Source: a virus. Taken from it: a stretch of 38,507 bases of DNA. The stretch covers positions 1 to 38,507 of the IMG/VR virus record IMGVR_UViG_3300008116_000268. One strand, 5' to 3'. Each line of letters starts with the position of its first letter. Position 1 is the first letter of the stretch. This document shows positions 27,985 through 31,258 of the stretch, piece after piece. The notes beneath the pieces were generated by a model. The model saw only the letters and a list, made by a program, of their open reading frames with translations. It was not told the DNA's origin and made no database searches. A program made the position numbers and the translations under genes.

Positions 27985-29403
27985 TTAAAGAGCGTAACGA
28001 TCGCTCGATACGGTCTTAACCATGATAGACTCTGGCGTCATACCATCGAGGTCAGCCGAGAGGACCGACTTCATGATAGCAGGACTGAAACCAGAGACCA
28101 GAGCAACACCCTTTTCGTCGAAACGAACAGGAACGTTGTCGGCTGCGTTGAGGTTCCAGAAGACGACAGCAGGTACAGCGTACCCAGCGTCTTCATACTT
28201 GCGACGAATCATCTGCATTGCAGAGTCATCGAAACGAGTGCACTCGTTGAACTGCATGTCCGACATGATCAGGAGAACCTGAGGCATATCTTCTGCTGCA
28301 ACACGGTTAGTAGTTGCAACGCGCAGAATCTCTTCGAAAGCACCGTGCAGGTTGGTAGACATCTCCCAGTGGGAGCGCTCCATCTGACGGACCTTCTGCG
28401 AGAGAGTACCCTTGACGTGCTCGAACTTCGGACGAGTCGAGAAGGTCAGGAACAGATCCTTGAACGGACCAGTGTTCTTATCTGCACAGTAAAGACCGAG
28501 CGAGACAGCAACATCCAGACACGTAGTCTGAGCCTTACCGAGAACATGCTTACCCCCGATAGGAGAGGTCATCGACCCCGAGACGTCAACCAGTGGCAGA
28601 ACCATGGCGTCACCGATGTAGTTAGGCAGAGCCTTCCACTGTTCATCGGCAAGAGCAGAGTCACCGTGGCGAACGTTCTTAACGATGTCGTACGGATAAA
28701 CCGCGCCAGCGTTAACCTTCGCAACCTTCGGGTCGCCCTTCTTCAGAGCTTCCTTATAAGCGGTGAATAGCTCAGGAGCGTTCTTACCGAACGCCTTCGA
28801 GTAGCGAGACATAGCCAGCGAAGGAACATGCGAGAAGTTAATTGCTTCCCACTCCTTAGCGCACATCTGCTGCTCAACAACCTTAGTTAGCTCAACGAGC
28901 CGCTTACGGTAGAACTTAGGGCTCCAACCGAATGCTTCTCGCAGCTCTGCAGCCTGCGGACCCTTACGAGGCATCCACTTAGCGCATAGACCGTTACCAG
29001 CCTCGAGCGCCTCACGGATGAGGTTGTACGCGACAGACTTGACCTCGGCGTCTTCGAAAACAAGCAGGTCGTCCCAACGGCCGATCTCTGCAGTGTTACG
29101 AAGGATGCGAGTGTTCAGAAGCTCATGCTTGTAGTTCTTCTCAAGGAACTTGAGAGTCTTACGATAGAGCTCACGCTCACCTGCACCACCGCGGACATCA
29201 CGAGCCCACTGCGCTACACGCAGAGCCAGCTCGCGGTCCTCGTGATAAGCCTTCTCGAACTGCTTCGAGATATCCTTACCACGTGACGCACCGATCTTGA
29301 AGAACAGATCAGTGGTGTTAGATAGAGACGACTTGAGAGCCTTCATACCATTCCAGGTACGAGCTTCAACTTCAGTGTTTAGTACTGCATTCTTAAAAGT
29401 CAT
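27985..29403 (-). CDS. DUF2828/Ro60-like protein with von Willebrand A domain
   Basis: The 472-residue protein has an all-helical N-terminal half with the DUF2828 phrases LRVAQWARDVRGGAGERELY (about 62-81), IGRWDDLLVF and AKWMPRKGPQAAELREAFGW. The C-terminal von Willebrand A domain starts near residue 265 (MVLPLVDVSGSMTSPIGGKH) and has an intact MIDAS metal site (D-V-S-G-S, with later T and D in QVLLIMSDMQFNE). Helical repeats plus a vWA domain is also the plan of Ro60/TROVE proteins, which bind Y RNAs and misfolded RNA. DUF2828 function is not established; RNA binding is inferred from this resemblance and from the structured RNA on both sides of the gene. SD GGAG 8 bases before ATG. Its own promoter lies at 29603. 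Confidence 0.85.
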   Translation of the reverse strand: MTFKNAVLNTEVEARTWNGMKALKSSLSNTTDLFFKIGASRGKDISKQFEKAYHEDRELALRVAQWARDVRGGAGERELYRKTLKFLEKNYKHELLNTRILRNTAEIGRWDDLLVFEDAEVKSVAYNLIREALEAGNGLCAKWMPRKGPQAAELREAFGWSPKFYRKRLVELTKVVEQQMCAKEWEAINFSHVPSLAMSRYSKAFGKNAPELFTAYKEALKKGDPKVAKVNAGAVYPYDIVKNVRHGDSALADEQWKALPNYIGDAMVLPLVDVSGSMTSPIGGKHVLGKAQTTCLDVAVSLGLYCADKNTGPFKDLFLTFSTRPKFEHVKGTLSQKVRQMERSHWEMSTNLHGAFEEILRVATTNRVAAEDMPQVLLIMSDMQFNECTRFDDSAMQMIRRKYEDAGYAVPAVVFWNLNAADNVPVRFDEKGVALVSGFSPAIMKSVLSADLDGMTPESIMVKTVSSDRYAL

Positions 29404-30195: not shown

Positions 30196-30492
30196 ATCTA
30201 TTTATATCAACGGGATGTCGGTTCTTTATTGGGAACCTAGGGAAGACCTAGTCTCATTTCGGTGAGACACCTAGATCGACGTAGAAACGCCGAACATCGT
30301 GCTAGAGTATCCGAAGATACGAGTCGAGTTGCTGTAACCATCCCAAATTAGAATTAGTTGCCGGATTCTGTTTCCAGGCTCCGGCGGGCCCATATGGATT
30401 ACGCAGCTAGGCGCATATCCATGAGGTCGTTGTCATTAGCAGCGACATTTAAGTTTATGGCCACTCGGCCAGCGAATCAGTCTCGAACCGCC

Positions 30493-30681
30493 TTATTCCG
30501 TCCCAGTCGATCCTAGTTCACCCCCATCATGAGTACAGAGTAGTTCACTTGCCTTGTTCACCCATATGAAAGGAAGAACCCCGTGAACCAGTAGAACGAA
30601 AGAAATCTTCCACGCTCTTAAAAGATGCTGCATGTATGTATACCCAGTATCTTTTAGATGCTTCATCTTCTCTGTACTCAT
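30493..30681 (-). CDS. Small membrane protein (DUF6356-like) nested in the tmRNA gene
   Basis: The 62-codon frame starts at ATG 30681, whose A is the last base of the tmRNA acceptor CCA, and ends at TAA 30493, inside the coding piece. Residues 6-46 (MKHLKDTGYTYMQHLLRAWK, then ISFVLLVHGVLPFIWVNKAS) match the pattern of DUF6356 proteins: HLKE-x-TYxxH, then one hydrophobic helix with IHAxLPFxF. ATG at 30666 (residue 6), behind GAGAAG, is an alternative start and gives 57 residues. The first start codon is in a 12-bp helix that flanks the segment. Translation would have to occur before tmRNA maturation. Function is unknown. Confidence 0.7.
   Translation of the reverse strand: MSTEKMKHLKDTGYTYMQHLLRAWKISFVLLVHGVLPFIWVNKASELLCTHDGGELGSTGTE
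30529..30681 (-). repeat. 12-bp inverted repeat bracketing the tmRNA intervening segment
   Basis: ATGAGTACAGAG (minus strand, 30681-30670) and CTCTGTACTCAT (30540-30529) are exact complements. The helix lies directly next to the acceptor stem, separated by only CC/CA on one side and GAT on the other. In the precursor it would stack on the acceptor stem and close a loop of about 129 bases, which is most of the nested gene. It probably positions RNase P and 3' processing. Confidence 0.85.
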
Positions 30682-30750
30682 GGTGGAGGTGACGGGTACT
30701 GCCCCCGTGTCCTCAGAACCTTTATCGTTGATTGTCAACAACTGATAATT

Positions 30751-31083
30751 TTATATAGCTTCATTTTGTTTATATTGCAACAGTTTTTTCGCTCTTTCTT
30801 TTACCCATTTATCAAAAGGTAGAAAAGCTCCCGATGCACCAGTCCAATCACGGAAAGCATCATCGTAGAAACCTATATCTATCTTTTGCTTTTGTAGCTC
30901 TACAAGCTCATCGGCCCACTGCTGCCACTTGTGGTCATCCACAACGTTATCGTCGAGCTCATAGTAGAGGTAGGAGTGTACCAGCATCTGTATACGTCTC
31001 TGACGGATCTTTTCCGAGAGCGTTTGCACCGCATTAACTTTCGGATCATCTTCATCTTCAAAAAAAGCATCAAGCGTCTGCAT
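30751..31083 (-). CDS. Unknown 110-residue phage protein with ligase-Ia-like motif
   Basis: I chose ATG 31083 (MQTLDAFFEDEDDPKVNAVQ), giving 110 residues, because earlier in-frame starts would overlap the upstream gene extensively; this one overlaps it by 14 bases. The core RRIQMLVHSYLYYELDDNVV with DDHKWQQWADELVELQ resembles the N-terminal Ia helix pair of NAD-dependent DNA ligases (LYY..D...SD.EYD), but no ligase catalytic domain follows. Small phage proteins with this single module are common and have no assigned role. The tmRNA promoter lies in its last codons. Confidence 0.72.
   Translation of the reverse strand: MQTLDAFFEDEDDPKVNAVQTLSEKIRQRRIQMLVHSYLYYELDDNVVDDHKWQQWADELVELQKQKIDIGFYDDAFRDWTGASGAFLPFDKWVKERAKKLLQYKQNEAI
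30752..30780 (-). promoter_or_regulatory. Promoter of the tmRNA
   Basis: Minus strand TTGCAA (30780-30775), 17 bases, TATATA (30757-30752), preceded by AAAAAACTG. It lies within the last codons of the upstream 110-residue gene. The predicted start is near 30745, at the proposed beginning of the acceptor piece. The AACTGTTGC element is shared with the other promoters of this family. Confidence 0.68.
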
Positions 31084-31258
31084 ACTTTCCGAACTCCCAA
31101 TAGTCCTTATCGTTCTTTGTGACGAAAAGAACCTTATAGCCTTCACCAAGAACACTATGATCTGCGATCATCTCATCGATGGTAAATGGCATTTGAGACA
31201 TTCGTTCATCGTTGGTCTTGATCCAGCCTTTGTTGGTAGAGATGAGATATGTGTTCAT
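31070..31258 (-). CDS. Unknown 62-residue protein
   Basis: I do not recognise a family. The sequence MNTYLISTNKGWIKTNDERM, then SQMPFTIDEMIADHSVLGEG, then YKVLFVTKNDKDYWEFGKYA is a compact alpha/beta mix. It overlaps the upstream 138-codon frame by 4 bases and the downstream gene by 14 bases, so these three genes form one coupled operon behind the promoter at 31682. SD GGAGG (from CCTCC in plus sense at 31265) supports the start. Confidence 0.68.
   Translation of the reverse strand: MNTYLISTNKGWIKTNDERMSQMPFTIDEMIADHSVLGEGYKVLFVTKNDKDYWEFGKYADA

Follow-up and report, generated by a model that had tools for sequence, protein, structure and literature searches.

A permuted (two-piece) tmRNA encoded on the minus strand of a viral genome fragment, at about 30743-30356 of IMG/VR record IMGVR_UViG_3300008116_000268, has a small DUF6356-type reading frame nested between its two pieces. 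The whole record, 38,507 bases long, was analysed and is referred to below as the window. Nested reading frames recur between the tmRNA pieces of other phages, and it appears from sequence comparison that many aquatic phages accommodate small protein genes in the tmRNA spacer. We consider it quite probable that one transcript yields both the tmRNA and the message for the small protein, and that expression of the two would be coupled.

Identification of the permuted tmRNA

Two Rfam covariance models match the locus on the minus strand. The permuted tmRNA model (RF04321, tmRNA_permuted) scores 85.0 bits against a cut-off of 47 at 30743-30399 and covers model positions 1-213, and the alpha_tmRNA model (RF01849) scores 83.6 bits against a cut-off of 50 (E 2e-21) at 30784-30356 and covers model positions 1-355. 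ARAGORN independently calls a permuted tmRNA* with the tag given as VAANDNDLMDMRLAA. The first-pass annotation had proposed a permuted two-piece tmRNA from the letters of this strand and had suggested a minus-strand covariance-model search as the check; both models exceed their cut-offs over their full length, and the proposal is confirmed by all three calls. Its assignment to the alphaproteobacterial type, carried by a phage, also holds, with the RF01849 and ARAGORN matches lying in a fragment of a T4-like myophage.

The sequence and the alignments place the acceptor piece, with T-arm and CCA, ahead of the coding piece (Table 1). The elements that had been pointed out earlier, namely CACCTCC, CCA, the T-arm, the GGGGGTG start and the D-loop-like GGATCGACTGGGAC, are all present. 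The acceptor helix GGGGGTG/CACCTCC, described as seven pairs with one G-U, indeed forms in all seven positions. The single G-U pair is G3-U70, the alanine identity determinant of tmRNA, and is therefore a required feature and not a blemish. The minus strand between 30745 and 30340 folds at -149 kcal/mol, compared with a shuffle mean of -114 (z = -5.9). The sequence points to a complete, probably working phage copy of the alphaproteobacterial two-piece tmRNA.

The tag frame follows the pattern expected for permuted tmRNAs, with an alanine resume codon, an LAA-type degron end and then a stop. Alignment with the relatives L128 (AAATGTC GCT GCA AAT) and L132 (AAATGTC GCA AAT) sets the resume codon at the first GCN after AAATGTC, so that the tag reads as in Table 1. 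The frame and stop given in the first-pass annotation stand, while its tag length does not, since the true tag is one alanine longer. The window and L128 tags differ by four synonymous changes, one conservative change (L to I) and the replacement of stop TAA by TGA; because this change is mostly synonymous, the tag looks selected as a peptide. The middle of the tag had been set apart from normal tags. Dozens of phage tags called by ARAGORN are varied, and the window tag falls within their normal spread.

Table 1. Features of the tmRNA locus in the window (positions are those of the whole record)
Feature	Positions	Strand	Remarks
tmRNA acceptor piece	30681..30743	-	RF04321 and RF01849 alignments, sequence
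T-stem	ACGGG 30708-30704 / CCCGT 30696-30692	-	In the acceptor piece
Acceptor 3' strand	CACCTCC 30691-30685, then ACCA 30684-30681	-	
Intervening segment, 155 nt	30526..30680	-	Between ACCA and GGGGGTG; presumably absent from the mature two-piece RNA
Closing helix, 5' strand TGAGTACAGAG	30670..30680	-	11-bp perfect complement of 30540-30530; starts right after CCA
Closing helix, 3' strand CTCTGTACTCA	30530..30540	-	Followed by linker TGAT 30529-30526
Nested ORF, 62 aa, DUF6356-type small protein MSTEKMKHLKDTGYTYMQHLLRAWKISFVLLVHGVLPFIWVNKASELLCTHDGGELGSTGTE	30493..30681	-	Pfam PF19883; C48C1 homologue
tmRNA coding piece	30356..30525	-	RF01849 reaches its last model position at 30356
Acceptor 5' strand GGGGGTG	30525-30519	-	Start of the coding piece
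D-loop-like GGATCGACTGGGAC, tag frame, 3' hairpin region GCCGGAGCCTGGAAACAGAATCCGGC		-	Further contents of the coding piece
Tag reading frame AANDNDLMDMRLAA-TAA	30399..30443	-	Resume codon GCT 30443-30441; ARAGORN
tRNA, CUA (amber) anticodon	30118..30195	-	ARAGORN; RF00005 65.3 bits; directly downstream of the tmRNA

Intervening segment and nested reading frame of the window

Neither the nested ORF nor the 11-bp helix that closes the intervening segment was noticed in the first-pass annotation, and the protein gene between the halves is a more unusual feature than the phage tmRNA itself. The helix lies 0 nt after CCA and 4 nt before GGGGG, which is the common register in phages. The ATG of the nested ORF (30681-30679) begins on the final A of CCA, and an alternative ATG (30666-30664) is found just past the closing helix; the ORF has no clear Shine-Dalgarno sequence, and its start codon is doubtful. 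The stop codon TAA (30495-30493) is located 33 nt into the tmRNA coding piece.

The encoded protein, predicted to be of membrane type, matches Pfam family PF19883 (DUF6356) with 30.1 bits against a cut-off of 24.4, and residues 1-48, which are encoded wholly ahead of the coding piece, alone reach 30.6 bits. All five invariant columns of the family (H, H, H, P and S) are kept. A tblastn search of 50,697 phage records returned one homologue (E 2e-8), a free-standing gene of phage C48C1, which is 55% identical to the window ORF over residues 7-48 (42 residues) without gaps; no permuted tmRNA was found in the C48C1 record. Given this gapless homologue and the Pfam match of the core, the window frame is, as far as sequence can tell, the core of a real protein subfamily. 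Only identical copies of the window ORF are known, and selection can be compared solely with the distant C48C1 gene, from which it differs at 12, 12 and 24 sites in codon positions 1, 2 and 3, with saturated synonymous sites. A chance ORF is ruled out by the Pfam match, the C48C1 homologue and the shuffle test given below. Decay of a DUF6356 copy, as might be read from the 7-residue gap relative to the Pfam family, is weakened as an explanation by C48C1, which has the same short form without gaps.

Nested genes in other phages

Scans of viral contigs for longer segments were pooled with the earlier loci, resulting in 48 non-redundant phage segments of at least 100 nt. Fifteen of them have a ribosome-binding site and an ATG near the start and an ORF that takes up 60% or more of the segment, compared with 0.55 expected from dinucleotide shuffles. 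Another set, picked on tmRNA letters alone and not on length, comprises 74 segments that are distinct but not reduced for redundancy; 22 of these are at least 100 nt long, and 10 hold such an ORF.

Nine viral loci carry a nested DUF6356 gene that is distinct from the one in the window (46.2 bits); six of these loci were found automatically (L525, L526, L527, L530, L532 and L565) and three, with differing acceptor letters, by eye (L528, L529 and L537). Codon comparison indicates strong purifying selection on these nested genes: the pairwise dN/dS values are mostly 0.02-0.14, and all seven codon changes between L525 and L526 are synonymous. The same protein is encoded by a free-standing gene in other phages. 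The acceptor stems of the eight complete loci are paired in seven of seven positions, with G3-U70, through compensatory changes (GGGGGTG/CACCTCC, GGGGCAG/CTGCTCC and GGGGCTG/CAGCTCC); these acceptor pieces were found from the position of the nested ORF, with the 5' strand set, within two nucleotides, to the register that pairs best. Acceptor stems from the wider survey are left out of the evidence, since pairing was a requirement of that search.

Of the 73 non-redundant phage segments of at least 40 nt, 53 have a closing helix of at least 8 bp (3.2 expected from simple shuffles); in a small bacterial sample, none of nine segments does. In the printed phage examples, the helix usually starts right after CCA and ends four nucleotides before GGGGG; two examples have it one nucleotide further in at both ends. 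The linker between helix and GGGGG is TGAT in most phage segments. Within the nested DUF6356 group, the helix changes in a compensatory manner from AAAACACA/TGTGTTTT to AAAATACA/TGTATTTT.

Two overlapping genes, one for a DUF6356 protein and one for an 89-aa membrane-like protein, share a 443-nt segment in L540/L542 (2477 onward). The 352-nt segment of L050 (minus strand, 8881-8337) holds a 95-residue frame whose product shares 43.5% identity with a pelagiphage HTVC010P hypothetical protein; the gene for the latter follows a peptidase M15 gene on its downstream side, a few genes away. No nested-gene family besides DUF6356 matches Pfam above the cut-off, and none of the nested genes matches a homing endonuclease family. 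We also observed a small membrane-like protein ending in IVYLIFF or VVYLVFF in segments of 159-294 nt (L015, L027, L064, L259, L306 and L497), with its stop just ahead of the coding piece.

Rfam models confirm tmRNAs that span the nested ORFs in L525, L537, L016, L050 and L251. ARAGORN misses most of the long-segment forms that were checked, so the number of long-segment phage tmRNAs is probably underestimated. Long-gap pattern matches in genome_contigs were set aside as apparently due to chance, with no locus having a D-loop-like motif after the gap.

The recurrence of nested genes bears on an alternative in which the phage tmRNA is an ordinary one and the window ORF is an untranslated captured remnant or harmless DNA. 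The absence of a clear ribosome-binding site and the overlap with the coding piece in the window would agree with it, as would the unrelated content or shortness of the segments in relatives; within the window clade these mostly differ, L127 having another ORF, L128 a hairpin, and L124 and L132 short segments. We nevertheless regard this alternative as unlikely, given that the 42-residue core is uninterrupted DUF6356, aligned with the C48C1 gene without gaps, and that nested frames elsewhere are subject to strong purifying selection and far more common than expected by chance.

Bacterial permuted tmRNAs

Permuted tmRNAs are present in 224 of 240 genomes of the class of genome G001, a class reached via a Sphingomonas locus, and among the matches listed just five span at least 277 nt. 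Read by eye, none of these five regions (L473-L477) showed a segment ORF accompanied by a ribosome site. The long segments of L473, L474 and L475 look repeat-like rather than gene-like. The surveyed bacterial permuted tmRNAs have short segments without nested genes. The DUF6356 gene itself was found in 27 of 142 bacterial genomes; its nesting in bacterial ssrA was not seen, and where both positions are listed, the two genes lie on different contigs or are separated by about 9 kb or more. DUF6356 is also present in Alphaproteobacteria, and the nesting of distinct DUF6356 genes within the tmRNA genes of different phages provides a strong context clue to the role of the family.

Possible use of the transcript

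The tmRNA parts, the closing helix and the conserved DUF6356-type frame running into the coding piece can be read directly from the sequence; from there on we propose the following. The precursor would fold as one long hairpin, in which the acceptor stem is followed by an ACCA/UGAU internal loop and then by the closing helix of 11 bp. Host RNase P and 3' processing enzymes could cut out the two tmRNA pieces, and host SmpB and alanyl-tRNA synthetase would use them to rescue stalled ribosomes, the nascent chains being tagged with AANDNDLMDMRLAA for ClpXP-type degradation. The SmpB used would have to be that of the host, since neither a set of 32 viral records nor a further set of 22, which includes the complete genomes of five isolated permuted-tmRNA phages, yielded an SmpB gene. 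Redirection of stalled host ribosomes by the phage, as suggested in the first-pass annotation, is shown by nothing in this analysis. The same transcript, before or after cutting, may be translated into the small DUF6356 protein. The two uses would compete in the window, because ribosomes reading the nested frame run across the acceptor strand and the cut at GGGGG removes the stop codon of the frame. With a nested gene, the tmRNA precursor would serve two purposes and would offer a simple system in which to study how RNA processing and translation compete.

A special form of this explanation is a self-limiting circuit similar to that of ArfA, in which the GGGGG cut strips the nested stop, the ribosome stalls and fresh tmRNA rescues it; the DUF6356 protein would then accumulate only at low levels of tmRNA processing or activity. 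Such a circuit would account for the window stop 33 nt inside the coding piece and for the eight of 15 nested frames that end within it. In the other seven, however, among them the nested DUF6356 genes with the best support, the stop falls 1-12 nt ahead of the cut site, and the conserved tmRNA letters give stops in two of three frames regardless. Because of these seven frames we treat the circuit as a rival and not as a rule, and its probability as low. We speculate, with little confidence, that phages turned the intervening segment into a regulated cassette, where the closing helix and RNase P cutting choose between the small-protein message and mature tmRNA; with a stop beyond the cut site, as in the window, the tmRNA would convert the nested message into a nonstop substrate and switch it off.

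The phage tmRNA might instead be a decoy that titrates host SmpB or blocks host trans-translation. The absence of an SmpB gene from every phage record searched, the complete genomes of the five isolated phages included, is consistent with this possibility, and such a role has been proposed for the TLD-only RNA of mycobacteriophage DS6A, a DS6A-like molecule having been found to inhibit tmRNA (PMC4131195). It seems highly unlikely for the window, since the G3-U70 pair and an amino-acid-conserved tag frame ending in LAA are kept, both of which would be needless in a decoy. The tag peptide to be sought as a mark of protein tagging in infected cells is NDNDLMDMRLAA.

Genomic context

The window belongs to a T4-like myophage, as genes for gp59, a single-strand-binding protein and a late-promoter regulator are present. 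The best matches of its gp6 baseplate protein are in Caulobacter phage Cr30 (39% identity) and, among others, Sinorhizobium phages N3, M12, M19 and M7. The tmRNA locus is common to three viral records, namely the window and two near-identical IMG/VR records, L121 and L122, the latter 100% identical to the window over 3345 nt. With its T4-like neighbours and its presence in three viral records, the locus sits in a phage genome and not in a prophage remnant. An origin from host DNA by misassembly, contamination or integration into host ssrA has a negligible probability: tmRNA genes are common integration sites (PMC11915505), but the three viral records, the flanking T4-like genes and phage tRNA array, and a tmRNA gene that is complete and no mere 3' fragment rule out contamination or an integration scar, and host-type genes have short intervening segments.

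The amber tRNA is probably a co-transcribed neighbour that is separate from the tmRNA. A tRNA with the CUA anticodon again lies near the tmRNA in the relatives L127 (3838), L128 (3239) and L132 (4413), and TAG is the stop in just one of 37 window genes. An amber suppressor beside a ribosome-rescue RNA raises the idea that rescue might follow readthrough. Just upstream of the tmRNA (30751-31155, minus strand), we observed a 134-aa stand-alone Nlig-Ia domain (PF22745), the N-terminal NAD+-binding domain of DNA ligase, with the rest of the ligase not adjoining. A 472-aa DUF2828/DUF7788 protein (phrog_850, 'RNA-binding protein'), which many phage contigs have, is encoded near the tRNA/tmRNA array at 27985-29403 of the minus strand.

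Comparison with known systems

Phage two-piece tmRNAs are already known, and the nested protein gene appears to be the new part. The novelty implied for the former in the first-pass annotation was too high, as aquatic-phage examples were described in 2022: according to Buchholz et al. (PMC9004378), 53 of 133 unique phage tmRNA structures are two-piece, 50 of these 53 come from marine or aquatic phages, and similar roles were proposed for them. In viral contigs, one 20-mer pattern gave at least 119 matches. Among isolated phages, we found permuted tmRNAs in two Rhodobacter phages, one Mesorhizobium phage, one Rhizobium phage and Stenotrophomonas phage DLP_6. The host of DLP_6 is gammaproteobacterial, and its permuted tmRNA (L583, 102838-103059) scores 136.8 bits. 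The permuted tmRNAs of RcRudolph, RcSimone-Hastad and Cp1R7A-A1 (L575, L577 and L576) are unannotated in GenBank, and the RcRudolph record places a 'hypothetical protein' across the tmRNA. No report of protein genes inside a tmRNA intervening segment was found in the open part of PubMed Central.

Four known systems are closest to the window locus. Methylophage Melnitz and related aquatic phages likewise have a complete permuted tmRNA of the alphaproteobacterial type in a T4-like aquatic myophage; for these, the paper (PMC9004378) reports a glutamine riboswitch and no nested protein gene, and its tmRNA section names no ORF in the intervening segment. Bacterial permuted ssrA (RF04321/RF01849) shares the whole-model match, G3-U70 acceptor pairing, T-arm, tag frame and piece order with the window, but the surveyed bacterial copies have short segments, whereas that of the window is 155 nt long and contains a closing helix as well as a protein frame. 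Genes borne by introns, including group I introns in tmRNA genes, similarly place a protein gene in a removable part of an RNA gene; the window, however, has no intron or self-splicing, and its gap parts two pieces that are never joined. Finally, the window protein shares with DUF6356 (PF19883) a core that scores above the family cut-off and the invariant residues, whereas together with C48C1 it forms a short subfamily without about 7 middle residues, and its C-terminus is encoded by tmRNA letters.
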